A stretch of 42,264 nucleotides of DNA from Cytophagales bacterium. Its GTDB lineage: Bacteria > Bacteroidota > Bacteroidia > Cytophagales > Bernardetiaceae. The position numbers and the translations under genes were made by a program. This document shows positions 17,760 to 30,716 of the stretch, in pieces; within the stretch, counting starts at the first letter, position 1, and each line of letters opens with the position of its first letter. Location: the NCBI GenBank assembly GCA_013299045.1, contig JAAFJX010000030.1:1-42264 (forward strand), read 5' to 3'. The notes below the pieces were generated by a model. That model saw nothing but the letters and a program-made list of their open reading frames with translations. It searched no databases and was not told where the DNA came from.

Positions 17760-20543
17760 CTATTCCCCCACCATCACAAAAGCGCCCCAGTAGTAAGGCT
17801 CTGGGAAACGTTTTTTGAGGTTCATTTGGGCTGTTTTGAAGGCTTGGCGCTTGCTTTGGCCTTTGAGTAGAGCTGTGTAAAATTCGGTCATCAGGGTTTG
17901 TGTGGCCTCGTCATCCACCTGCCAGAGGCTCATCAGCACGGACTTTGCACCCGCTTGCTGAAAAGCGCGTTGCAAACCAAAAACGCCCTCGCCCGCCTGT
18001 ATGTCGCCTAAGCCCGTTTCGCAAGCAGATAGCACGACGAGTTCCGTATTGTCCAACGTCAAGTTCATCACTTCTTCGGCCGTCAAAATACCGTCTTCTT
18101 TGTCTGGGTTGGGTTTTTGGCAGCCAGCTAGCAAAAGGCCAGAGCGCAGGAAAGGGTTTTTCAAAAGATTGCGGTTCATGGCTGTTTGCATATCTTGCAC
18201 TTCAGAATCCTTGATTTCGGGAATAAAAAAACCATGCGTGGCCACGTGCAAAATCGTGGGGCTTTTGAGATTTTTAACGGCTTCTTCGGTGGCGTTTTCG
18301 GCCAAAAGCAAGTTTACTTTCAGCTTTTTTTGATTGAACAAACCAAACACATTTTCCACTTCTTTCTTCGTGCCAGGCAGCAAAGAAACAGCCCCCGCCA
18401 CGCCCACAGCGGACTGCATTCCTGAAAAGCCAAGCGAGCGGTCGCGCTTTTTTTCTGGCTCTTTTTCTGTATTCTCAGCCCCATAAATGGGGTAGCCGAG
18501 CAGGTGCGCCTGATAATTCTCGTAGTTTTGGCTCAAATCGCGGCTTTTTTTATTCAGCTCTATCAAATCGCGGCTACTGCCAATGAGCTGAATATTGGCT
18601 TCTTCCAAAAGAAATTTGCCTGTTTTAGTATTTTTGAGGGTATTCAGGCTGAGTTGATGAAAAACACCATCTGGCGAAAAATAGATTTTCTTGAAGCCTT
18701 TTTTGTTCAAAGTCGATAACTTATCGGCTATAGGCTTCCAGAAGGCGTTGTAAGAAACCGTATCTTCTATTTTGAACTCAATGCAGTTTTTGTAATAGTT
18801 CAAGAATTTGTCTTCAAGTTCTTGGGCATTTTTGAAGAGATAAAAAGCTGGATAGTTTTCTGTTTGAGCCGTCAGAAAGAGAGCGATATAAGCAGAATCT
18901 GACTTGATGATTTCTATAACCACTTCATTTTTGGCTAATTTGGCTTTCACTTCCTGCCACTTGTAGGATTTTGTTTGCACGTTCTGACCAAAGAGAGCGG
19001 ATTTTTTGGACAGGTCTTTCTCCAAATCATTGATTTGGTTTTTCATTCCTTCCAAGTCCAAATTTTGCTTTTTTTGTTCTTCAAGGGGCAGTTGGTAGAG
19101 TTTGGTGTAGCTCTCACGTTGTTTTTTCCAGTTGTTGTACTGATTGACAAGAACGGTATCTCCGCTGTTTAGAATGGTATTTTTTATTTTTTGGGTAGAG
19201 GAGAAAATGATGCCTTTGGTGAAGAGGGTTTGGTCGTAGAGGTCGGCCATGATGACGGGATTCTGGATGGCGTAAATTGGATAACAATGTGCAAAATCAT
19301 TAAAGTATGATTTAATCCGTATCCAAAAATTTTGCTTTTCTGCCTCCGAAAGTATGGGGAATACACTATGAACATTAGCCTGTAGATTGTTTTCTACCTT
19401 TTGATAAATAGGTATTGCTTTATTTACATCAACCTCTTCATAAAGTTTAGCCAAATTAATAGAATTTGATATGTAAGTTAAATGGTTTGCCCCTTTTATT
19501 CGTTCAGAAATGCTTATGGCCTCTAAATAAAGGGCTTCTGCTTTATCATATTTTTTTACTTCACTGTATATGTTTGCAAGATTTGACAAGCTATTCACGT
19601 AGTTATCTAGCGATAGCGGCATATTCTGTTTATCTATTTCAATAGATAGCAAATTTAATTCCTCTGCAAGGTCATATTTTTTTTGTTTTGCAAAAACTGC
19701 GGCCAAATTAGTGCAGGCTATCGCATATTCAGGGCTATTCGTATCTACTATTTGCGCCTTAATATTCTTAGCCTCTAAGTAGAGTTCTTCTGCTTTGTCT
19801 AGTTTAAAAGAGCAAAAATAGCTTCCTGCTAAATTATTACAAACCGTTGCATACATTTCATGGTTTTTACCAAAGACTCTTTCTGTTATACTTTTAATAT
19901 CTGACCAAATTTTTTCTGCTTTATCATGAATGGAATGCTGATAATACAGAGCTGCTAGCGCATTACTAATCAAGAGATAGTCATAGCTATCTTTACCTAT
20001 TTTAGTCTCAAGTATCGCCATTGCTTCTTGCAAAATAGTTTCAGTCTCGCTGTATTTACTCTGTTCTAGATAACTATTGGCCAAGTAGTAGCATATTTTT
20101 GCATAGGAAGTGGTGTTTTTCTCACCATTCTCGATAAGAATACTGGCTGCCTCTTTAAGATATATTTCAGCTTCAGCGTATTCATTCAAATAAAGGCGTT
20201 TAAGCATACCCAAGCTAACACATTCTTTGATATGAACACTGCTGTTTCTACCATATAGTTTTTCCGTAATATCCTTGATAGATTTTTGCAGCGTAACAAG
20301 GTCTTGATACTTGCCTAAATTCATAAGAACTTGGGCACGTAGTTTGGCGGTTCTTAGGTAGGTCGTATCCCGCCCATACTGTGCCTCTGCTTTTTCAAGG
20401 GCTATTTTCAGAACCGAATCTGCCGCCAGAAAGTTTTGTTGTGTAGTTAGAACTTTCCCCAAGCTGTCTAATTGCTGCCAAGTTTGGGCTTGAACTAATG
20501 TACTCACAAAGAGCAAAAAGAGTATTAAAAACGTGTTTTTCAT
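17760..20543 (-). CDS. Exported TPR-CHAT protease, fourth gene of array (divergent copy)
   Basis: 927 residues. A signal peptide of 20 residues (ending VQAQ) is followed by about seven TPR-type repeats of about 42 residues in the first 400 residues, a helical linker, and a CHAT (caspase HetF-associated with TPR) domain from about residue 590. The catalytic pair is visible: His770 in 'ILHVATHGFF' and Cys841 in 'VVLSACETGLGD'. The end 'EPYYWGAFVMVGE' is the usual CHAT C-terminus. CHAT domains are clan CD cysteine peptidases; in known systems they cut a partner protein after a TPR sensor is engaged. The signal peptide places this one outside the cytoplasm. It shares domain order with the three genes upstream, but its CHAT part is clearly different. 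It starts 30 bases after the previous stop and is last in the operon. Confidence 0.88.
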   Translation of the reverse strand: MKNTFLILFLLFVSTLVQAQTWQQLDSLGKVLTTQQNFLAADSVLKIALEKAEAQYGRDTTYLRTAKLRAQVLMNLGKYQDLVTLQKSIKDITEKLYGRNSSVHIKECVSLGMLKRLYLNEYAEAEIYLKEAASILIENGEKNTTSYAKICYYLANSYLEQSKYSETETILQEAMAILETKIGKDSYDYLLISNALAALYYQHSIHDKAEKIWSDIKSITERVFGKNHEMYATVCNNLAGSYFCSFKLDKAEELYLEAKNIKAQIVDTNSPEYAIACTNLAAVFAKQKKYDLAEELNLLSIEIDKQNMPLSLDNYVNSLSNLANIYSEVKKYDKAEALYLEAISISERIKGANHLTYISNSINLAKLYEEVDVNKAIPIYQKVENNLQANVHSVFPILSEAEKQNFWIRIKSYFNDFAHCYPIYAIQNPVIMADLYDQTLFTKGIIFSSTQKIKNTILNSGDTVLVNQYNNWKKQRESYTKLYQLPLEEQKKQNLDLEGMKNQINDLEKDLSKKSALFGQNVQTKSYKWQEVKAKLAKNEVVIEIIKSDSAYIALFLTAQTENYPAFYLFKNAQELEDKFLNYYKNCIEFKIEDTVSYNAFWKPIADKLSTLNKKGFKKIYFSPDGVFHQLSLNTLKNTKTGKFLLEEANIQLIGSSRDLIELNKKSRDLSQNYENYQAHLLGYPIYGAENTEKEPEKKRDRSLGFSGMQSAVGVAGAVSLLPGTKKEVENVFGLFNQKKLKVNLLLAENATEEAVKNLKSPTILHVATHGFFIPEIKDSEVQDMQTAMNRNLLKNPFLRSGLLLAGCQKPNPDKEDGILTAEEVMNLTLDNTELVVLSACETGLGDIQAGEGVFGLQRAFQQAGAKSVLMSLWQVDDEATQTLMTEFYTALLKGQSKRQAFKTAQMNLKKRFPEPYYWGAFVMVGE

Positions 20544-20573
20544 TGTGTTTTTTTGTTTTAATTACTGAACTCT

Positions 20574-23500
20574 CTATTCCCCCACCATCACAAAAGCGCC
20601 CCAGTAGTAAGGTTCTGGGTGTTGCTTTTTGATGATTGCTTGGGCTTCTTTGAAGGCTTGTCGGGCTTTGTTGCTTTCTGCAAATTTCTGGTAGAAAGTG
20701 GTCATCAACTTTTGCGTTACGGCATCGTCCACCTTCCACATAGACATGACGATGGACTTTGCACCCGCCACTTTGAAAGCCCGTTGCAAGCCATAAACGC
20801 CCTCTCCTGCCTTTACGTCGCCCAGGCCTGTTTCGCAAGCCGACAAAACCACTAAATCTGTTTCGTCTAAGTCTAGGTTTGCGGCCTCAAGGGCGGTCAA
20901 GATACCGTCCTCCACGTCTGGTTTCATTTCCGCACGCGTGTAGTCGCTGACACCTGTGAGCAAGAGGCCAGAGCGCAACATAGGGTTCACCTTCTCATTT
21001 TTTTCTTTGGAATCAATGAAAAAGCCGTGCGTGGAAAGATGCAGAACTTTGGGGTTCTTTATTTTTTTGATATTTTCTTCGGTGGCGTTTTTTTCCATCA
21101 AAACTTTTGTTTGGTAATTCTTTTTGTTCAGAATCTCATAAATAGTTTCTACTTCTTTTTTTGTTCCGGGCAAAAGGCTCACTTGCTGAAAGTTCGCGAA
21201 GGCTCGCGTGCTATCTGCCAAAATTTCGCGCATTCGGGCTGCGTCCGCATTTTGCGTTTGTAGGTCGTAGAGCGGGTAGCCCAAGAGTTCGGCCTTAAGG
21301 GTTTTATTTTCAGATTTGCCAAAGGCCAAAATATCTTTGGTGTTGGTTACCAAATGCAGCTCTATTTCGTCCAGAACAAACTTTTTGGTCTTGGGGTTCT
21401 GCAAGGTGTTCAGGGAAATTTGGTTATAAATGCCGTCTGGTGAGAAATATACTTTTTTGATGCCCTTCAAATTACTGGCTATGGGTTGCCAAAACTGAGC
21501 ATAAGATAAAGAATCTTTTTGGAGGAACTGTATAGCGTTTTTCTGGTAAATAGCAAAGTCTTTTTCGAGTTCTTTACCATTTTTGAGCAGAATAATTTCG
21601 GGCTTCTTGCTGTTTTTCTTAACAATGAGAGCGGCATAATAAATGGTATCGGACAAATAATAGATGTAGTACTTTGGAAAATTGGGCGCTTTCGCTACAT
21701 CAGAAGTATCTGTAATGCTATCATGGACTCCAAATTTATTGAAACGAACTATCTCTATGGCTGCTTCATTTTTTTTGAGTGTTTTTTGAATATCCTTCCA
21801 AGACGTTTGTTTTTTGTCGGTCAGGGTAGCAAAGGCTTCTGATTTTAGGGATAGTTCTTTTTCTAAATCCTCGTTCAAGCTCTGGAGGGACTCCATTTCA
21901 ATACTTTTTTGTTTGCGTTCTTCTTGAGTCATTTGGCTAGCCCGAATAATTTTTTCTTTAATGCTATTCCATTCTGCGTACTTTTTGATTAGAGCGGAGT
22001 CGCCGCTATTCAAAATTCTATTTCGTATTTTTTGAGTCGCCTGCATCAAAACGGCTTTTGTGGCGAGCTGGAGGTCATAAAGCGCCTCTGTATCAATTTC
22101 AGGTCTCGCAATAGCGTAGGAGCCATAAACGCTTATCTTTCTTAGCAATACTTCATTGTAAAAACCTTCTCTTTGGAGTTCGCTCAAATATGGAAATTGT
22201 AGCGAGATTTGTTCTAAGACCCAGTTTTTGATAGAGGTCTGCTCTTTAAATGACACATCTTTATTCCCTTTTAGCCAGTTTAAGCGAGCAAATCCTTGTA
22301 GTGTATAAACGTAGTCTGGGTGTTTTTCTCCTAAACTTGCTTTCAAAATCTGAAGAGCCTCCTCAAATAGTGTTTGTGCAAGTTGATAGTTTTGAGTATC
22401 CATATAAAAAAGAGCCAGGCTTAAAAGACTCCTGGCGTATTGCTCATGTTGGTTGCCTAATACACTTTTTTTAATTCTTATATCTTCTTTCAGAAAGGCC
22501 TCAGCTTTAGAAAAGTGCCCCACCGCTGAATAGATATTGGCCAGATTGCCAATTGTTTGGGCATAATCAGGGTGTTCTGTACCTAAAATTTCCTTTTGTA
22601 TGGCAGCAGCTTTCTTGAGTAAAGTCTCTGCTTCGGCATAATGCTCATTCATAGTAGCAACTATACCCAGATTATTAAGAAGACCAGCATAATTGATATG
22701 TTTTTCCCCAAATATTTCTTTATAGATTGCCAAACTCTCCTTATACTGCTGTTCAGCAAGTAAATAACAACCCATTTGTCTATATAAATTGGCTAAGCCA
22801 TTGACGATGAGTGCATAGTCTGGGTGTTTGCGCCCTACTAGTTCTTTTTTCAATCTAAGGCTTTCTTTATAAAGCGGCTCTGCTATAGTAAAATAGCCCA
22901 TATCTTTGTATGAAGTAGCCAGATTAAAGAGATTGCTTGAATAGGTTGTATGCTTTTCGCCTAAAGACTCTTTATAAATATTAGAAGCTTCAAGATAATA
23001 CTTTTTAGCGTTTTCATAAAGTCCTAGCTTTTTGTAAAGTCTTGCTAAACTGGTGAGCGCATCGGCATACTCTAGGTGCTTTTCACCGAACGTCTTTTTC
23101 TTTGATATGAGATATTCATCATAATAAACTTCGGAGTTTTTATAATCTGCCGTTTCATAATAAAGCATTCCTAAAGCCTTGAGCGATGACGTATATTCAA
23201 CACCCTTTTTTGAAAAAATTTCAGTACGAATAGCCAATGCCTCTTTGAGAAAAGTCTCGGCCAATTTAGCTTGTTTGCCCTTGTATATAGGCACAAAAAA
23301 TAAACCTAAATTATTTAGTGCGTGGGCATAAATTTCACTCTTAGGTGCAAAATCCTTGCACAAGGCCACATTTTCATAGAGAAGTGCGCTAGATTTTGCG
23401 CTATCCGAAACGTAGATACTCGCTTGACCGAAGGAGTTTCTCACTTTCAAAAAAGCTGCGGATTTTCTTGTAGAGTCTTTCTCTATTTGAGGCAAAATTT

Positions 23501-23639
23501 CCTCACAAAGACTGGTGGCTTTTCCAAAATATCTGTTCTGGATTAAAGAATCTAGTATATGCACATCCGTTTTCCAAACTTGAGCACAAATACTTGTTGT
23601 GTGTAGCAATAAAAACAGAGAAAGAAAGATAAGTTTCAT
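20574..23639 (-). CDS. Exported TPR-CHAT protease, third gene of array
   Basis: 1021 residues from the ATG at 23639, which opens a signal peptide (MKLIFLSLFLLLHTTSICAQ). The frame runs 39 bases further upstream, but that would hide the leader. Roughly nine TPR repeats of 42 residues fill about residues 60-450, mostly ending in 'LGEKHPDYA'-like linkers as in kinesin-light-chain-type TPRs. A helical connector and the CHAT domain follow, with His871 (LHLSTHGFF) and Cys935 (VVLSACETGLGD). The last 620 bases of coding sequence are identical by eye to those of the first gene of the array. Upstream of that the two diverge, and some patches match the second gene instead. The spacing to the second gene is 42 bases. 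The target of the protease is unknown. Confidence 0.88.
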   Translation of the reverse strand: MKLIFLSLFLLLHTTSICAQVWKTDVHILDSLIQNRYFGKATSLCEEILPQIEKDSTRKSAAFLKVRNSFGQASIYVSDSAKSSALLYENVALCKDFAPKSEIYAHALNNLGLFFVPIYKGKQAKLAETFLKEALAIRTEIFSKKGVEYTSSLKALGMLYYETADYKNSEVYYDEYLISKKKTFGEKHLEYADALTSLARLYKKLGLYENAKKYYLEASNIYKESLGEKHTTYSSNLFNLATSYKDMGYFTIAEPLYKESLRLKKELVGRKHPDYALIVNGLANLYRQMGCYLLAEQQYKESLAIYKEIFGEKHINYAGLLNNLGIVATMNEHYAEAETLLKKAAAIQKEILGTEHPDYAQTIGNLANIYSAVGHFSKAEAFLKEDIRIKKSVLGNQHEQYARSLLSLALFYMDTQNYQLAQTLFEEALQILKASLGEKHPDYVYTLQGFARLNWLKGNKDVSFKEQTSIKNWVLEQISLQFPYLSELQREGFYNEVLLRKISVYGSYAIARPEIDTEALYDLQLATKAVLMQATQKIRNRILNSGDSALIKKYAEWNSIKEKIIRASQMTQEERKQKSIEMESLQSLNEDLEKELSLKSEAFATLTDKKQTSWKDIQKTLKKNEAAIEIVRFNKFGVHDSITDTSDVAKAPNFPKYYIYYLSDTIYYAALIVKKNSKKPEIILLKNGKELEKDFAIYQKNAIQFLQKDSLSYAQFWQPIASNLKGIKKVYFSPDGIYNQISLNTLQNPKTKKFVLDEIELHLVTNTKDILAFGKSENKTLKAELLGYPLYDLQTQNADAARMREILADSTRAFANFQQVSLLPGTKKEVETIYEILNKKNYQTKVLMEKNATEENIKKIKNPKVLHLSTHGFFIDSKEKNEKVNPMLRSGLLLTGVSDYTRAEMKPDVEDGILTALEAANLDLDETDLVVLSACETGLGDVKAGEGVYGLQRAFKVAGAKSIVMSMWKVDDAVTQKLMTTFYQKFAESNKARQAFKEAQAIIKKQHPEPYYWGAFVMVGE
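20575..21194 (-). repeat. 3'-end repeat, copy in third CHAT gene
   Basis: About 620 bases at the 3' end of the third CHAT gene that show no difference by eye from 27043-27662, including third codon positions. The first mismatch is at 21195. Covers the catalytic His and Cys codons. Confidence 0.85.
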
Positions 23640-23681
23640 ATTCGTCAGTTTTAATTTTTTTAATCTTAAAAATAACAAAGT

Positions 23682-26600
23682 TCATTCCCCCACCATCACA
23701 AAAGCGCCCCAGTAATATGGCTCTGGGTGTTGCTTTTTGATGATTGCTTGGGCTTCTTTGAAGGCTTGTCGGGCTTTGTTGCTTTCTGCAAATTTCTGGT
23801 AGAAAGTGGTCATCAACTTTTGCGTTACGGCATCGTCCACCTTCCACATAGACATCACAATGGACTTTGCGCCCGCCACTTTGAAAGCCCGTTGCAAGCC
23901 ATAAACGCCCTCTCCTGCCTTTACGTCGCCCAGGCCTGTTTCGCAAGCCGACAAAACCACCAAATCTGTTTCGTCTAAGTCTAGGTTTGCGGCTTCGAGG
24001 GCAGTCAGAATGCCGTCTTCGGTGTCTGGTTTCACCTCGGCACGCGTGTAGTCGCTGACACCTGTGAGCAAGAGGCCAGAGCGCAACATAGGGTTCACCT
24101 TCTCATTTTTTTCTTTGGAATCAATGAAAAAGCCGTGCGTGGAAAGATGTAGAATTTTAGGATTCTTCACTTTTTTGATATTTTCTTCGGTGGCACTTTT
24201 TTCCATCAAAACTTTTGTTTGGTAATTCTTTTTGTTCAGAATCTCATAAATAGTTTCTACTTCTTTTTTTGTTCCGGGCAAAAGGCTCACTTGCTGAAAG
24301 TTGGCAAAGGCACGTGTGCTGTCTGCCAAAACTTCGCGCATTCGGGCGTTGTCCGCATTTTGCGTTTGTAGGTCGTAGAGCGGGTAGCCCAAGAGTTCGG
24401 CCTTGAGGGTTTTGTTTTCAGATTTGCCGAAGGCCAAAATATCTTTGGTGTTGGTTACCAAATGCAGCTCTATTTCGTCCAGAACAAACTTTTTGGTCTT
24501 GGGGTTCTGCAAGGTGTTCAGGGAAATTTGGTTATAAATGCCGTCTGGTGAGAAGAAAACTTTTTTGATACCCTTCAAATTCTGTGCAATAGGCTTCCAG
24601 AATTGGTCGTAGGAAATTAAATCTTCCTGCATGAACTGAATTGTATTTTTTTGATAGACCGCAAATTTTTCTTCCAGTTCATTGCCGTTTTTGAGCAGGA
24701 CAATTTTGGGCTGCTTGCTGTTCTTTTTGAGGATGAGAGCGGCGTAGTAAATGGTGTCTGTTAAACCCCAAAGTGGGTATTGGGGGGAAATCGGGGCTTG
24801 GGTTACATCTGAGGTATCAGTTATAATTCTGTGGACACCGTACTTGTTGATACGGACTATCTCTATGGCAGCTTCGCCTTTTTTAAGCGTTTTTTGAATG
24901 TCTTGCCATGAAGTACTTTTTTTATCGGTTAAGGAGGCAAATGTCTCAGATTTTAGAGATAAATTTTTCTCTAAAGTTTCGCTTAATTCACCGAGAGAAT
25001 CCAACTTGATGCCTTTTTCTTGCCGCTCTTTCTGGCTCATCTCATTGACTTTGATAATTTGTTGTTTAAGCGTGTTCCATTCCCAATATTTTTGAATCAA
25101 AGCCGTATCTCCACTATTCAAGATGCGGTTTTTTATTTTCTGGGAGGCTTGCATCAGAAGGGCCTTGGTGGAAAGTTGCAAATCATAGAGTTCTGTAGCA
25201 TTTATTTTGGGCATTTCTATGACAAGGCTGCTGTATATGTTGAGGTATTGTTTTACTTTTTGGTTGTAGAATGCCTCCTTTTGCACCTCGCTGAGGCTAG
25301 GAAGTTGCAGCTCGGTTTGCTTTACGCACCAGTTTTTTACATGAGTAAACTCCCTGTATGCTATTTCTTTTTTTCTTAAATGCCAATTTAAGAGTGCTTG
25401 AGCTTCCAACAAAAAGATATAATTGGGGTGGTTTTCGCCCAAAACTTCTTTCTGAGTTTGCATGGCTTCATTCAGAAATGATTCGGCGAGGCTATAGTTG
25501 CGAATATTCCGATAGAGAATCGCGAAGTTGCCCATTAAACTAAGATACTCAGGGTGCTTTTCGCCCAAAACTTCTTTGCGGATTTGCAGAACTTGTTTAT
25601 AGAGCGATTCTGCCGCGTAGTAATTGCCCATTGCGAAATACAGACCTGCTAAATTGTTCAAAGAGGCAGCATAGTCTGGGTGTTTTTCTCCAAAAATATC
25701 CTTGAGGATATGCCCTGCTTGTTTGTACAAAGGTACAGCAGCGTTGTACTCAGCATTTTTCTCATAAAAAAGGGCTAAATTATTCAAAGAAACAGCATAA
25801 TCAGGGTGCTTTTCGCCCAAAACTTCTTTGCGGATTTGCATAGCTTGTTTGTATAGCGGCTCAGCAGCCCCATAGTTGCCCATAGCAAGGTATAAATTCG
25901 CCAAATTATTTAGAGATGTAGCATAAGTATGATGCTTTTCACCGAAAACCTCTTTCTGGATTTGAAGGGCTTGTTTGTAGAGCTGCTCAGCAGCCACGTA
26001 GTTGCCCATGTCGTAGTATAAAATAGACAGACCATTTATAGAGGAGGCATAATCTGGGTGCTTTTCACCCAGAATATCTTTTCGGATTTGCATGGCCTGC
26101 TTGTAGAGCGGCTCCGACGCACTGTAGTAGCCCATGTTCCAGTACAAATTTGCCAAATTATTCAAAGCAGCAGCATAACTAGGGTGTTTTTCGCCAAGTA
26201 TTTCTTTGCGGATTTGCGCAACCTGTTTGTAGAGGGGTTCTGCCGCGCTATAATTGCTTGTTGCGAGATAGAAACCCGCCAAATTGCTTACCGAAACAAT
26301 ATAGTCCAGATGTTTTTCACCAAGCACTTCTCTGCGGATTTGCATGGCCTGCTTGTAGATTGGTTCTGAGAGACTATACTTGCCCATGCTCCAATATAAA
26401 TTTGCCAAATTATTCAAGGCAGCAGCATAGCTTGCGTGTTTTTCACCCACTACTTCTCTACGAATTTGAATGACTTGTTTATAAATTAGTTCAGCAGCTG
26501 TATAGTTGTTCATATCATAGTACAAAATGCCCAAACTAGTGAGAGAACTGGAATAATCAAGGTGCTTTGTACCCAACGCTTCTTCCCGTACTGCTATGCT

Positions 26601-26996
26601 TTGCTTGATAAACTCCTCGCTTTTTTTAGGATTATTTCCTTTTCCTTTGGGGCTATAAAAAGAGCCTGCATTTTGCAGGGCTGTGCCATAAGCAGCTGTT
26701 TTTTCGCCAAAACTCTTTGCTAAATCAATATTTTCTAACAAAAACGCCTCTGCTTTTTCCTTCTCACCTACAAAAGTCATACAACGCCCCAGCCCATTTC
26801 TAGCATTCAGATAAGCAGCAGATTTTTTGGTAGAATCTTTTTGTATCAAGGGCAAAACTTGCTCATAAAATTGCACAGCGCCGTTAAAATCCCGTTTTTG
26901 CATCAAAGAATCAGCCTTTTTATAGGTTTCTTGCCAAGTTTGGGCTAAAAGGGGTGTACTTTGCAGGAGTAGGAAAATGAAAAGGCAGTATTTCAT
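23682..26996 (-). CDS. Exported TPR-CHAT protease, second gene of array (longest TPR run)
   Basis: 1104 residues from the ATG at 26996, with signal peptide MKYCLFIFLLLQSTPLLAQ. About eleven TPR repeats; nine of them (residues 148-525) are nearly regular 42-residue units of the form 'YAxSLNNLANLYxxMGNYxAAExLYKQAxQIRKEVLGEKHPD'. This regularity is also seen at DNA level as a 126-base period. A connector follows, then the CHAT domain with His954 and Cys1018. The final 300 residues match the first and third genes with only scattered changes. Compared with its neighbours it has the longest and most uniform repeat array, which suggests recent repeat multiplication. Cytoplasmic CHAT proteins have no leader, so export is the odd feature here too. 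Confidence 0.88.
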   Translation of the reverse strand: MKYCLFIFLLLQSTPLLAQTWQETYKKADSLMQKRDFNGAVQFYEQVLPLIQKDSTKKSAAYLNARNGLGRCMTFVGEKEKAEAFLLENIDLAKSFGEKTAAYGTALQNAGSFYSPKGKGNNPKKSEEFIKQSIAVREEALGTKHLDYSSSLTSLGILYYDMNNYTAAELIYKQVIQIRREVVGEKHASYAAALNNLANLYWSMGKYSLSEPIYKQAMQIRREVLGEKHLDYIVSVSNLAGFYLATSNYSAAEPLYKQVAQIRKEILGEKHPSYAAALNNLANLYWNMGYYSASEPLYKQAMQIRKDILGEKHPDYASSINGLSILYYDMGNYVAAEQLYKQALQIQKEVFGEKHHTYATSLNNLANLYLAMGNYGAAEPLYKQAMQIRKEVLGEKHPDYAVSLNNLALFYEKNAEYNAAVPLYKQAGHILKDIFGEKHPDYAASLNNLAGLYFAMGNYYAAESLYKQVLQIRKEVLGEKHPEYLSLMGNFAILYRNIRNYSLAESFLNEAMQTQKEVLGENHPNYIFLLEAQALLNWHLRKKEIAYREFTHVKNWCVKQTELQLPSLSEVQKEAFYNQKVKQYLNIYSSLVIEMPKINATELYDLQLSTKALLMQASQKIKNRILNSGDTALIQKYWEWNTLKQQIIKVNEMSQKERQEKGIKLDSLGELSETLEKNLSLKSETFASLTDKKSTSWQDIQKTLKKGEAAIEIVRINKYGVHRIITDTSDVTQAPISPQYPLWGLTDTIYYAALILKKNSKQPKIVLLKNGNELEEKFAVYQKNTIQFMQEDLISYDQFWKPIAQNLKGIKKVFFSPDGIYNQISLNTLQNPKTKKFVLDEIELHLVTNTKDILAFGKSENKTLKAELLGYPLYDLQTQNADNARMREVLADSTRAFANFQQVSLLPGTKKEVETIYEILNKKNYQTKVLMEKSATEENIKKVKNPKILHLSTHGFFIDSKEKNEKVNPMLRSGLLLTGVSDYTRAEVKPDTEDGILTALEAANLDLDETDLVVLSACETGLGDVKAGEGVYGLQRAFKVAGAKSIVMSMWKVDDAVTQKLMTTFYQKFAESNKARQAFKEAQAIIKKQHPEPYYWGAFVMVGE
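23683..24302 (-). repeat. 3'-end repeat, copy in second CHAT gene
   Basis: The corresponding segment of the second gene. It is highly similar to the other two but carries scattered, mostly synonymous changes (for example agtaatatggctct for agtagtaaggttct near 23710). Confidence 0.8.
25422..26555 (-). repeat. 126-base tandem repeats encoding TPR units
   Basis: Nine consecutive in-frame units of 126 bases (42 residues each) within the second CHAT gene. For instance, the string CCCAAAACTTCTTTGCGGAT recurs at about 25567 and again 252 bases later. The units differ enough to be old, but share long runs of DNA identity. Confidence 0.8.
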
Positions 26997-27041
26997 ACAA
27001 TGAGCATTTAGTTGCAAATCAAACTACAAAAACTAAGCCTT

Positions 27042-30000
27042 TTATTCCCCCACCATCACAAAAGCGCCCCAGTAGTAAGGTTCTGGGTGTTGCTTTTTGA
27101 TGATTGCTTGGGCTTCTTTGAAGGCTTGTCGGGCTTTGTTGCTTTCTGCAAATTTCTGGTAGAAAGTGGTCATCAACTTTTGCGTTACGGCATCGTCCAC
27201 CTTCCACATAGACATGACGATGGACTTTGCACCCGCCACTTTGAAAGCCCGTTGCAAGCCATAAACGCCCTCTCCTGCCTTTACGTCGCCCAGGCCTGTT
27301 TCGCAAGCCGACAAAACCACTAAATCTGTTTCGTCTAAGTCTAGGTTTGCGGCCTCAAGGGCGGTCAAGATACCGTCCTCCACGTCTGGTTTCATTTCCG
27401 CACGCGTGTAGTCGCTGACACCTGTGAGCAAGAGGCCAGAGCGCAACATAGGGTTCACCTTCTCATTTTTTTCTTTGGAATCAATGAAAAAGCCGTGCGT
27501 GGAAAGATGCAGAACTTTGGGGTTCTTTATTTTTTTGATATTTTCTTCGGTGGCGTTTTTTTCCATCAAAACTTTTGTTTGGTAATTCTTTTTGTTCAGA
27601 ATCTCATAAATAGTTTCTACTTCTTTTTTTGTTCCGGGCAAAAGGCTCACTTGCTGAAAGTTGGCAAAGGCACGTGTGCTGTCTGCCAAAACTTCGCGCA
27701 TTCGGGCTGCGTCCGCATTTTGCGTTTGTAGGTCGTAGAGCGGGTAGCCCAAGAGTTCGGCCTTGAGGGTTTTATTTTCAGATTTGCCGAAGGCCAAGAT
27801 ATCTTTGGTGTTGGTTACCAAATGCAGCTCTATTTCGTCCAGAACAAACTTTTTGGTTTTAGGATTTTGCAGAGTGTTCAGGGAAATTTGGTTATAAATG
27901 CCGTCTGGTGAAAAGAAAACTTTTTTGATGCCCTTTAGTTTTTGTGCGATGGGCAGCCAGAACTGGTCGTAGGAAATTAAATCTTCTTGCGTGTATTGAA
28001 TGGCATTTTTTTGATAGAGGACGAATTCCTTTTCAAGCGCATTGCCATTTTTGAGAAGGATAATTTCGGGTTCTTTACTGTTCTTTTTGACAATCAGTGC
28101 GGCGTAGTAAACGGTATCGGTGAGGCCATAGATTGGATATTGAGGGAAATTGGGAGCTTTGGCCACATCTGAGGTGTCTGTTACAATTTTTGCAAGGCCG
28201 TATTTATTGATTTTGGCAATCTCTATAGCTGCCTCGCCTTTCTTGAGTGTTTTCTGAATATCTTGCCACGTAGTGCGCTTTTTGTCGGTCAAAGATGCAA
28301 AAGCAGCAGATTCGCGAGAAATTTCTTTTTCTAAATATTCATTCTGGTTTACAAGATAGTCCAAATTGATGCCTTTTTCTTGACGAGTGGTTTCGTTCAT
28401 TTCCTCAGCCTTCATAATTTGGTTTTTGAGTTGATTCCAATCCTGATACTTTCTTATTAAACTAGTATCACCACTGTTCAAAATGCGTGTTTTAACTTTT
28501 TGGGCGGCTTGCATCAAAACAGCCTTCGTAGAGAGTTGCAAATCATATAGCTCTTTGGTGTTTATCTGAGGCATTTCGACAGCGAAGCCCATATAATTTT
28601 TGATGTATTTTTGAAGCCTGTCTTGGTAAAAATCTTCTTTTTGAGTTTCGTTCATGTATGGCAAAGTGTTTTCTGTGCGCGCAATACTCCAGTCCTTGAT
28701 GAGCTTATAATTCGTGACGGCTTGGGTTCTATTGCCGCTCGCCCAATCTATAAATGCTAAGTTGCTGATAGACTGAATGCAAAAATGATTATCCTTTCCT
28801 AGAATATCACTCTGAAGCTGAAGGCATTTTTTCTGTAACAATGCCGAAGAGTCGTATCTGTGCATATTTGCATACAAATACGCCAAACTGTTAAGACTTA
28901 TTGCATAATTTATATTGTTTTCTCCAAGAGTCTTTGCGTAAATGTTTAAGCTCTCTTTAAACAACTTTTCAGCAACAGAGAAATGACCCATTTCTTCATG
29001 CATATTGCCAAGACGTTCTAGAGACGCTGCATAAAGACTGTTATTCTCACCCAAAATATCTTTTCTAATCTTCATACTTTCCTCAAAAAGTGGCTTTGCG
29101 GCAGCGTATTTTTCGGTATAGACATACAAATCTGCAAGGTTGTAGAGAGATTGTGCATAATCAAGATTCTTCTCACCAAGAAGCTCCTTGCGAATTGTTT
29201 TGCTCTCAATATAAAAACGCTCAGCTTTGGTATAGTATCCTGTCATATAGGCAATAACTGCAAGATTATTCAGTAAGATTGCATATTCTAAATTTTTTGT
29301 ACTGTAAAGTTTTATATATATTTTCATAGCATCTGAATAATTTTTTTCAGCTAGCAAGTAATTGCATTGCAACATATAAGCACCCGCTAAGTTATTTAGA
29401 GCGTAGATGTATTCAATGCTTACTGTATCGGCAATAGATTTTCGGATATCCAGGTTTTCCTTATGCAATTTTTCTGATTTTGTATAATTGCCCATGCTTT
29501 CATACAGAACTCCCAAATTGTTGATGACTGAAGCATAGCTTGAGTGCTTTGCACCCAAAATTTCTTTGCGCAGTTCTGCACACTTCAAATAGAATGATTC
29601 AGCTTTGGGGTAATCGCCTATTTGCCAATACAGCACCCCCAGATTGTTTAACACTTGAATGTAATCTAGATGTTTTTCGCCCAAGGCATTTTTTCTGATA
29701 GTTAAGGCGCTAAGATACAGGCTTTCGGCATCGGCAAACTTCTCTGTCGCTTTTTTTACGTTAGCAAGATTATTCATTGAAGCGGCACAGTCGAGATGCT
29801 TTTCGCCTAAAACTTCTTTTCTGATGTCTAAAATTTCTTTATAAAGTGGTTCCGCTGAAGCATAATTGACTGTATTGTAGTAAAAATTTGCTAAGCTATT
29901 AAGCGAGGACGCATATACAAGGCTCTTTCTACCAAATTTTTTTGCTAGTTCTACACTTTCTAGTAGAAAAGTCTCTGCTTCTCCTTTACTTTTGATAGAG

Positions 30001-30224
30001 ACAATAGCGCTACCCAGTCCATTTCGAGCCTTCAAATATACTTCAGATTTTCTACTTGAATCCTTTTCTATCAAGGGCAAAACTTGTTCATATAAAGCGA
30101 TAGCGCCCTCAAAATCGCGCTTTTTTGTAAGAGAATCTGCTTTTTGCAAATCAGTTTTCCAACTTTGGGCGGAGAGAAATGTTGTAGGAAACAGAAAAAA
30201 AAGCGAAAACATCAAGACTTTCAT
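27042..30224 (-). CDS. Exported TPR-CHAT protease, first gene of array
   Basis: 1060 residues, signal peptide MKVLMFSLFFLFPTTFLSAQ. It is the promoter-proximal gene of the four on the minus strand. About ten TPR repeats of about 42 residues (roughly residues 60-490) are more varied than those of the second gene. Then comes a helical connector with 'TRILNSGDTSLIRKYQDWNQLK', shared by all family members, and the CHAT domain with His910 (LHLSTHGFF) and Cys974 (LSACETGLGD). Its last 620 bases equal those of the third gene, while the stretch just before resembles the second gene. Upstream I see only a weak promoter candidate (TATTGTTG at about 30260, minus strand). Confidence 0.88.
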   Translation of the reverse strand: MKVLMFSLFFLFPTTFLSAQSWKTDLQKADSLTKKRDFEGAIALYEQVLPLIEKDSSRKSEVYLKARNGLGSAIVSIKSKGEAETFLLESVELAKKFGRKSLVYASSLNSLANFYYNTVNYASAEPLYKEILDIRKEVLGEKHLDCAASMNNLANVKKATEKFADAESLYLSALTIRKNALGEKHLDYIQVLNNLGVLYWQIGDYPKAESFYLKCAELRKEILGAKHSSYASVINNLGVLYESMGNYTKSEKLHKENLDIRKSIADTVSIEYIYALNNLAGAYMLQCNYLLAEKNYSDAMKIYIKLYSTKNLEYAILLNNLAVIAYMTGYYTKAERFYIESKTIRKELLGEKNLDYAQSLYNLADLYVYTEKYAAAKPLFEESMKIRKDILGENNSLYAASLERLGNMHEEMGHFSVAEKLFKESLNIYAKTLGENNINYAISLNSLAYLYANMHRYDSSALLQKKCLQLQSDILGKDNHFCIQSISNLAFIDWASGNRTQAVTNYKLIKDWSIARTENTLPYMNETQKEDFYQDRLQKYIKNYMGFAVEMPQINTKELYDLQLSTKAVLMQAAQKVKTRILNSGDTSLIRKYQDWNQLKNQIMKAEEMNETTRQEKGINLDYLVNQNEYLEKEISRESAAFASLTDKKRTTWQDIQKTLKKGEAAIEIAKINKYGLAKIVTDTSDVAKAPNFPQYPIYGLTDTVYYAALIVKKNSKEPEIILLKNGNALEKEFVLYQKNAIQYTQEDLISYDQFWLPIAQKLKGIKKVFFSPDGIYNQISLNTLQNPKTKKFVLDEIELHLVTNTKDILAFGKSENKTLKAELLGYPLYDLQTQNADAARMREVLADSTRAFANFQQVSLLPGTKKEVETIYEILNKKNYQTKVLMEKNATEENIKKIKNPKVLHLSTHGFFIDSKEKNEKVNPMLRSGLLLTGVSDYTRAEMKPDVEDGILTALEAANLDLDETDLVVLSACETGLGDVKAGEGVYGLQRAFKVAGAKSIVMSMWKVDDAVTQKLMTTFYQKFAESNKARQAFKEAQAIIKKQHPEPYYWGAFVMVGE
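27043..27662 (-). repeat. 3'-end repeat, copy in first CHAT gene
   Basis: Identical by eye to 20575-21194. Directly beyond it (27663-27780) the sequence switches to a better match with the second gene (24303-24420). Confidence 0.85.
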
Positions 30225-30456
30225 TGCGATTGCTGTTTGGGTTTCGGATAATGCTACAACAATAGCGCTAAAAATTGGTTGAAACTAGATTTTTTTAGTT
30301 TTTTACAGGAAAAATACCATAAAATAACCAAACAATTCGTCTTGCATTATTCTGAAAACTATCAACCCATCATTCAACACACTCGCTTTGTGGCTTTTTA
30401 TTTATTTATCTGCTCAGAGGCTATTAATTGAGCAAAAAAATGTGCTACTTGCGGGC
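30225..30456. other. Intergenic region between CHAT operon and tRNA-like gene
   Basis: Contains the upstream region of the CHAT operon. Near 30283-30302 there is an AAACTA...TAGTTT hairpin followed by T's on the plus strand. A TACTTGC at 30446-30452 just before the tRNA-like gene resembles a shortened -7 box. No coding frame is seen. Confidence 0.4.
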
Positions 30457-30582
30457 GAGGCGTGTAGCTCAATTTGGTTAGAGCGGCATAAGTTTTATAA
30501 TTGTAGGGTTTTGCTCGGCCAAATAAAACTTATTTCTAGCTATGGGTGCTGTTGGTTGTAGGTTCGAGTCCTACCACGCCTC
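30457..30582 (+). tRNA. tRNA-like gene with ~50-nt expansion in place of the anticodon arm
   Basis: Acceptor stem AGGCGTG (30458-30464) pairs with CACGCCT (30575-30581); the flanking G30457-C30582 would make an eighth pair. TA at positions 8-9 is followed by the D arm GCTC/GAGC (30467-30470, 30481-30484) with a loop containing GG. The T arm is GTAGG-TTCGAGT-CCTAC (30558-30574), perfect for a tRNA. Between the D and T arms there are 73 bases where about 23 are normal. That insert holds an 11-base perfect inverted repeat (ATAAGTTTTAT 30488-30498 / ATAAAACTTAT 30523-30533), which could form a long arm with GGC/GCT below it. I cannot find a 5-bp stem with a 7-base loop and U33, so no anticodon is assigned. 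CCA is not encoded. A T-run (30583-30591) follows. It may be a non-decoding tRNA-like RNA, or a tRNA gene disrupted by a small palindromic element. Confidence 0.5.
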
Positions 30583-30588
30583 TTTTTT

Positions 30589-30619
30589 TTTGATGTTGCG
30601 GTTTCTTTTGCTAGATTTG
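30589..30619 (+). promoter_or_regulatory. Consensus promoter upstream of lipoprotein-murQ genes
   Basis: TTTG (30589-30592), 19 bases, TAGATTTG (30612-30619): both boxes match the Bacteroidota consensus with ideal spacing. Transcription would start near 30626, about 90 bases before the lipoprotein start. Confidence 0.65.
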
Positions 30620-30716
30620 CGTTGTTGGATTCAGCATTGGGTGCGAGCAATCAATGAAGGTGTCCAAGTCTAGTTTATAGTTTTACGGTGTCATTCCTAA
30701 AAAAACTTTATCCGTT

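Follow-up and report, generated by a model that had tools for sequence, protein, structure and literature searches.

The window analysed here comprises 42,264 nucleotides (nt) of a Cytophagales bacterium (Bernardetiaceae; GenBank assembly GCA_013299045.1, contig JAAFJX010000030.1, positions 1 to 42,264 of the forward strand) and contains, at 30457–30582, a gene shaped like a transfer RNA (tRNA) whose anticodon arm is interrupted by a hairpin. The Rfam tRNA model matches 30458–30582 on the + strand at 44.5 bits (gathering threshold 29), with 0 mismatches in the acceptor stem (7 base pairs, bp), D stem and T stem, and a T-run follows. Between the D stem and the T stem lie 73 bases (30485–30557), which include an exact 11-base inverted repeat (30488–30498/30523–30533). 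An original prediction, made from the letters of the window, had pointed out the matching arms, the T-run, the 73 bases and the repeat, and these stand. Its one error concerns the anticodon loop, which it regarded as missing. The arm exists and is interrupted after three base pairs: when 30489–30538 is taken out, GCA plus GC pairs with GCTGT to give a 5-bp stem with the 7-nt loop TATGGGT, and the arm thus restored directly follows tRNA position 26 and ends five bases before the T stem. The split site between tRNA positions 29 and 30 was chosen from four solutions by alignment with relatives. The layout of the gene is as follows.

30458–30464, + strand: acceptor stem, 5′ strand, AGGCGTG (G30457 and C30582 form a possible extra pair)
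30467–30484, + strand: D arm, with stem 30467–30470/30481–30484
30486–30488, + strand: anticodon stem 5′ strand, first three nt, GCA
30489–30538, + strand: 50-nt insert, a hairpin resembling the stem of Y RNAs (an intron under the rival explanation given below)
30491–30498, + strand: helix P1, 5′ strand, 8/8 pairs with 30523–30530, extending to 11
30500–30505, + strand: core ATT-GTA (family form ATT-AYC)
30517–30522, + strand: core GGC-CAA (family form GGT-CAA)
30523–30536, + strand: P1 3′ strand (30523–30530), then TATTTC (family form TACTTC)
30539–30552, + strand: remainder of the anticodon arm, GC, loop TATGGGT and GCTGT, with A at position 33
30558–30574, + strand: T arm
30575–30591, + strand: acceptor 3′ strand (30575–30581), C30582, then a nine-T run; no encoded CCA

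The whole RNA is predicted to fold at −41.1 kcal/mol (z −2.9), with equally stable shuffles in 0/200 cases. Within the core of the window copy, AA pairs with TT, A30505:G30517 is mismatched and the family A-U pair is G-C (30503:30519); C30520 is the proposed bulged C, a role suggested by its likeness to the Y RNAs described in passages of PMC4030889. ARAGORN, run without introns, called no tRNA at the element, which is the only one longer than 100 nt among the 35 tRNA-model matches in the genome. Rfam at E 5 over 30400–30640 returned the tRNA and two chance-level matches (AniS, mir-19), and no intron family. Group I introns are far larger than 50 nt, and a group I intron was rejected on the size of the insert and the lack of an Rfam intron match, in agreement with the original prediction.

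DNA similarity searches with the 126-base element gave only the self-match among 59 relatives and none in plasmids, and the family to which the gene belongs was found solely via pattern and structure. The search pattern (tRNA D arm, 55–85 nt, T loop) occurred in 40/390 genomes of the order, with the core at 27 of 52 listed places as counted by eye (GGTCAA; GGCCAA in the window). A looser scan of loci gave 107 distinct long-gap rows, 90 of them with the core and 87 after removal of three false tRNA pairings (L065:6238, L097:4778, L111:13841), so that the collected family comprises 87 genes, 51 of them non-redundant, across Bacteroidota. In an alignment of 28 of the 41 single-insert genes (13 were omitted by author's choice), 24/34 pairs are altered on both sides, paired cells amount to 96.9% versus 81.0% in shuffles, 0/500 shuffles reach any of the five measures, and sliding the partner strands lowers pairing to 35–49%. 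The stems are kept in homologues, which was the check on covariation that the original prediction had proposed. In this alignment the core A-U pair is altered on both sides in one gene alone, the window copy, where it is G-C. Insert sites vary, being mostly 28/29 and 29/30 with some at 30/31 or within the loop. Judged from these sequences, the window gene is one member of a family of tRNA-shaped RNAs that is widespread and uncatalogued. The open-licence literature yielded no description of inserts of this sort in bacterial tRNA genes, a weak negative because it is limited to open-licence papers. Phages gave at least 120 pattern matches, 80 of them taken as loci, and none of the 80 combined a core of at least 7/8 paired positions with an exact GGTCAA.

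The family also bears on the two alternatives left by the original prediction, a small palindromic element that entered a tRNA gene or a stable RNA of tRNA shape that serves some purpose other than decoding. The perfect 11-base inverted repeat speaks for insertion of a palindromic mobile element or of a chance inverted repeat. A genome-wide search for this repeat, as had been suggested, was run (arms 10–40 bases apart, 0 mismatches) and located it at a single place in the 4.06-Mb (megabase) genome, with no second copy of the repeat pair, and an equivalent, covarying hairpin sits in the anticodon arm in dozens of species. A transposable palindrome was rejected on the single genomic copy, the homologues refuting it for practical purposes, and we regard such an insertion as highly improbable. 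The second alternative, the non-decoding RNA, fits best.

Taking the insert out of relatives has the same effect as in the window gene and gives, for example, ACGGC-TTTGGGT-GCCGT, ACGGC-CTGTCAC-GCCGT and GGACA-CTTTTAA-TGTCC. A full arm is restored in 46/51 non-redundant genes (32 stem-split, 14 loop-split) and in none of the remaining 5/51, compared with 10% for shuffled inserts and 26% for swapped halves, these controls having been run on 54 rows with the three false tRNA pairings still included; a reversed control was uninformative, since reversal preserves pairs. T33 and purine 37 are present in 23/23 stem-split genes with a single arm solution, the count being limited to these because the choice among multiple solutions favoured T33 and purine 37. 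Where the split lies in the loop, its boundary is ambiguous, and T is the second 5′-side loop letter in 9/14. These observations bring in a rival explanation, namely that the insert is a new short intron, both ends of which are cut by a nuclease or by the RNA itself, after which RtcB joins the exons into an ordinary-looking tRNA. The restored arm comes with a 4–5-nt variable loop in the 46/51 genes and is restored even though insert sites differ, and the intron explanation gives the better account of the canonical loops and the varied sites. Against it, the splicing endonuclease family PF01974 was found in 0/19 relatives, own genome included (the control was positive in 4 archaea of 14 genomes), in line with the original prediction on this enzyme, and archaeal-type splicing was rejected. 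Moreover, a hairpin inserted in one strand could leave the 5-bp stem stacked without excision, and the 5/51 genes with no full arm and the 14 ambiguous boundaries fit the explanation less well. Considering also the decoding features and the arrays described next, we think an intron unlikely.

With regard to decoding, 36 orthologues start with AGGTAGTTT; they are of Flavobacterium type, one (L131) being labelled Saprospiraceae. Their anticodon loops read CTTTTAA (22), CTTCTAA (6), TTTCTAA (2), CTTATAA (1) and TTCATAA (1), with 4 that misfit this reading of the arm. In contrast to these varying anticodons, the acceptor ends of the family are conserved (GCAG 61/87, ACAG 12/87); CCA is encoded in 4/87 genes. 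Position 73, judged by the tRNA identity rules, does not fit Pro (C, C, C and T with TGG, window included) or Gly (3/3 A with TCC). The anticodon of the window's split arm would equal that of Pro(tgg), and the window gene is not needed for the tRNA set, because the 34 ordinary tRNAs that ARAGORN finds at the genome's other tRNA-model places include Pro(tgg). As to what makes a decoding tRNA, the cloverleaf is present and an uninterrupted anticodon stem-loop with U33 is absent in the window copy. The orthologue differences in anticodon and the position-73 mismatches argue against an intron that yields decoding tRNAs and, on balance, suggest tRNA mimics rather than isoacceptors.

The core also recurs outside tRNAs, in arrays of the form GGTCAA - 8 nt - TACTTC - cargo - 8 nt complementary - N - ATTAYC. 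The 8-bp helix of this form is fully paired (8/8) in 68/190 candidates versus 1.5% with shuffled partners; only exact helix duplicates were removed from the 190, so that related loci are counted repeatedly. Each helix position shows all four Watson-Crick types among the 125 candidates in which 6 or more pairs form. For the in-tRNA form the corresponding figures are 23/207 versus 1.6%, the pattern here also taking in many chance pairings. Cargo in the arrays can include a hairpin resembling a T arm (GGTTCGAATCC), together with a closed hairpin and a loop containing GG (L097, L131), and in sequence it resembles a circularly permuted tRNA. Rfam at a permissive threshold gave, for one array, a transfer-messenger RNA match below the cut-off and three weaker matches. 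That the same core surrounds other cargo in arrays is a further point against the intron explanation.

Arrays stop just before the gene of a protein of ~745 amino acids (aa) with an N-terminal RING-like zinc motif, which a scan of a one-genome-per-species collection recovered at 60 loci in Flavobacterium, Cytophagales, Chitinophaga, Niastella and Chlorobi- and Spirochaetia-labelled records, among others. Core elements lie within 900 nt upstream, in sense orientation, in 60/60 protein loci (in-tRNA form 54, array form 59), compared with 0/60 in the 900-nt downstream stretch and 0/60 antisense, some of the 60 loci being shorter than the stretches scanned.

Three of these proteins matched NCBIfam NF041916 (MXAN_6230/SCO0854 RING) as their sole family, at E 2e-39 to 7e-46 and with scores of 135–157 versus a curated cut-off of 600; because the score is far below the cut-off, the protein is taken as a relative, not a member, of NF041916. 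The open-licence literature gave no paper naming SCO0854 or MXAN_6230, nor any RNA linked to the SCO0854 family. Pfam Prok-RING_4 matched 28/28 members at E 0.1, and stays under its cut-off in the member shown. The AlphaFold model has a pLDDT (predicted local distance difference test) of 77, or 86 for the helical domain alone. In VIA, TerD structures match the model over residues ~520–700 (Z 12–14), and Ro60/Rsr structures match the whole model over 161–746 (2nvo, Z 7.1, 306 aligned). With the helical domain alone (329 residues), the top seven VIA rows are all Ro60/Rsr (Z 7.4–8.5, 246–258 aligned), and rows 8–10 have Z 7.0–7.1 over just 95–101 aligned residues. On the predicted structure, the protein appears Ro60-like, not a proven orthologue.

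RtcB lies within the flanks of 29/60 protein loci, mostly of related Flavobacterium, to which L124, L130, L131, L133 and L134 do not belong; flanks were shortened in 13/60 loci. RlaP-like proteins (Pfam: RNA repair pathway DNA polymerase beta family) occur in 10/60 loci, an RNase-T-like exonuclease in 6/60 and a WYL regulator in 42/60. Among the 59 relatives, RtcB is present in 14/14 genomes with the protein versus 17/45 without it (p 2e-5, kinship uncorrected). The frequency of RtcB in the loci and its presence in the 14 genomes also agree with the intron explanation, in which it would join the exons.

The genome of the window itself encodes the Ro60-like protein (G000:C5:7026–9254, 54% identity), on another contig than the tRNA-like gene, and RtcB (G000:C62). 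A family covariance model, R1, gives the window element 91.5 bits, and the next listed match in the genome is an ordinary 72-nt tRNA. The window sequence went into the building of R1, as did sequences from 8 of the 13 genomes counted below. Because ordinary tRNAs also match R1 (55–62 bits, ~72 nt), only listed matches longer than 100 nt were counted. Among the listed R1 rows these occur in 13 of 59 genomes (G000, G002, G003, G005, G006, G007, G008, G010, G013, G023, G032, G047, G054), all within the 14 that have the protein and in 0/45 of those without it (Fisher p 3e-12, kinship uncorrected); G005, G010, G023, G032 and G047 have a long listed match though they gave no sequence to R1.

In some bacteria Ro60, Y RNAs and RtcB are encoded in one operon, whose enzymes are described as having unknown substrates (PMC7790460). 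In Salmonella, according to the same paper, this operon comprises rsr, Y RNAs and rtcBA, and a tRNA-like domain is part of YrlA. The present family resembles this arrangement in that a tRNA-shaped RNA adjoins the gene of a protein with a Ro60-like predicted fold, RtcB often being near; homologues adjoin this gene in 60/60 loci, the window copy is on another contig, and the protein has no TROVE sequence match. A review (PMC4030889) describes a bulged C in the Y stem as the primary Ro60 site, kept in bacterial Y RNAs.

The family core (GGY, C, AA facing UU, RYC) has the same layout as that bulged-C stem. The C between GGY and AA, next to a short helix, is kept, and the helices covary. Type G array elements with T-arm-like hairpins inside the stem are like a permuted tRNA and in this resemble the architecture of YrlA. 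Unlike YrlA, the family has a complete tRNA with acceptor ends and an anticodon hairpin, the stem is inserted in the anticodon arm, and several elements stand in tandem. Compared with Ro60/Rsr, the predicted helical domain aligns over 246–258 residues with seven entries, and the partner protein differs in that it has no TROVE match, an N-terminal RING-like motif and a TerD-fold domain where Ro60 has a vWA domain. Compared with group I and archaeal bulge-helix-bulge tRNA introns, the interrupted anticodon arm is likewise restored on removal; the differences are the 50-nt insert and the core common to non-tRNA elements.

Taken together, the window gene probably encodes a noncoding RNA in the shape of a tRNA, which would be of a divergent Ro60/Y-RNA type and part of an RNA-repair system. 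In this proposal the cloverleaf (acceptor, D, T and small anticodon hairpin) would be a tRNA mimic, and the inserted hairpin (8-bp helix, C-bulge internal loop and TAYTTC tail) would be what the Ro60-like RING/TerD protein binds. The complex may offer the tRNA body to enzymes that act on tRNAs (RtcB ligase, RlaP-type nucleotidyltransferase, RNase-T-like exonuclease) and could act in RNA repair or quality control with the cloverleaf as mimic or bait. We favour a hairpin that stays in the mature RNA as a protein-docking arm over one that is removed as an intron, because the core serves non-tRNA cargo, no splicing endonuclease family was found in 19 relatives and orthologue anticodons differ.

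Several observations weigh against this proposal. On the protein side, Pfam TROVE was unmatched in 28 members at E 0.1, both Foldseek searches gave no E below 0.001 and no Ro60 among the 50 best rows, and Ro60 appeared only in the second look with VIA, where a Z near 8 for helical repeats may reflect a common arrangement; since Foldseek was not significant and the Z may have this origin, we speak of a Ro60-like protein rather than a proven orthologue. TROVE (PF05731) was also unmatched in the window's genome. On the RNA side, Rfam YrlA (RF02553) exceeded its 69-bit cut-off in 0/8 genomes and gave no match in the own genome at E 0.001; YrlA matches below the cut-off occurred in 5/8 genomes (best 47.8/69 bits) and also in 7/14 controls, and were not traced to arrays. 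A non-decoding RNA has no obvious need of anticodon loops as strikingly canonical as these, and position 73 fits Lys (5/5 A) and Asp (2/2 G) by the identity rules. The window copy, finally, lies apart from the protein gene, and four letters of its core (ATTGTA, GGCCAA, TATTTC) differ from those of the family. One genome of the same genus (G001, 84% complete), the exception among the 14, has no long copy among the listed R1 rows, its relative of the protein having only 26% identity.

The last two of these points, the diverged core and the lack of a listed copy in G001, together with the A at position 33 and the lack of any GGTCAA element in the 1300 nt before the genome's own RING gene, would also suit a decaying relic, orphaned after the array beside the protein gene was lost and transcribed weakly or not at all. 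A two-mismatch core pattern found no signal of further copies in the own genome (97+123 matches versus 161+165 for the reversed control). Such decay is at odds with the intact acceptor, D, T and P1 helices (P1 8/8, extending to 11), with the replacement of the core A-U by G-C on both sides, and with the fact that the genome retains the protein and that no other copy was found in it. The relic reading is possible for the window copy alone, and we hold it to be improbable.

Other unusual tRNA-like elements were also observed. Some tRNA inserts are seemingly nested, with a second array element carrying its own T-arm-like cargo inside the hairpin (L035:1619, L042:1597, L097:5594, L124:5484, L130:359, L139:5486; 142–182 nt from D to T stem). 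Another conserved RNA resembling a tRNA, its insert ~140 nt long (TAGCTTAAAAGGAAAAGC ... GTAGGGAAGCGTATTTA ... GTTCGAATC), occurs in 7 loci, all on the + strand (L093:5251, L101:5258, L122:5264, L146:5264, L121:8338, L088:2380, L137:2833), the copies in L093, L101, L122 and L146 lying ~740 nt upstream of the RING gene. Six of the 7 were aligned with 74% mean column identity, and the copy in L121 had no Rfam match over the cut-off. In an uncultured Aquimarina (L097:4300–5450) a dense run of tRNA genes, some of them odd, stands immediately upstream of the array, and L088 and L137 show similar rows; the run may be a mobile array of tRNA genes that adjoins it. Inserts of another kind than the window element, GC-rich and resembling palindromes, interrupt the anticodon stem in its 5′ half in Lys- and Arg-like tRNA genes at G310:C1:6659960 and 6660118 (side by side), G372:C1:1042742, G280:C1:976823 and G247:C9:21561. 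In the window itself, four tandem TPR-CHAT proteins of 927–1111 aa, each with a CHAT domain, are encoded at 17760–30224 on the − strand, the last gene starting ~230 bases before the tRNA-like gene. The original prediction had considered this proximity potentially meaningful; the CHAT operon looks irrelevant, because the homologues adjoin a different gene.

What is at stake is whether the family represents Y RNAs of a new kind or tRNA introns of a new kind. A splicing pathway in Bacteroidota, in which Y-RNA-like hairpin introns are excised by a protein or ribozyme (perhaps the Ro60-like RING/TerD complex), RtcB joins the exons and a Y RNA is released, seems doubtful to us; if it were true, bacterial RtcB would have a natural splicing substrate and the intron would release a Y RNA. 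The family offers a second arrangement resembling Ro60, tRNA mimic and RtcB, present in named Flavobacterium strains, with arrays of tRNA-shaped RNAs and a protein family of unknown function whose predicted fold becomes interpretable.
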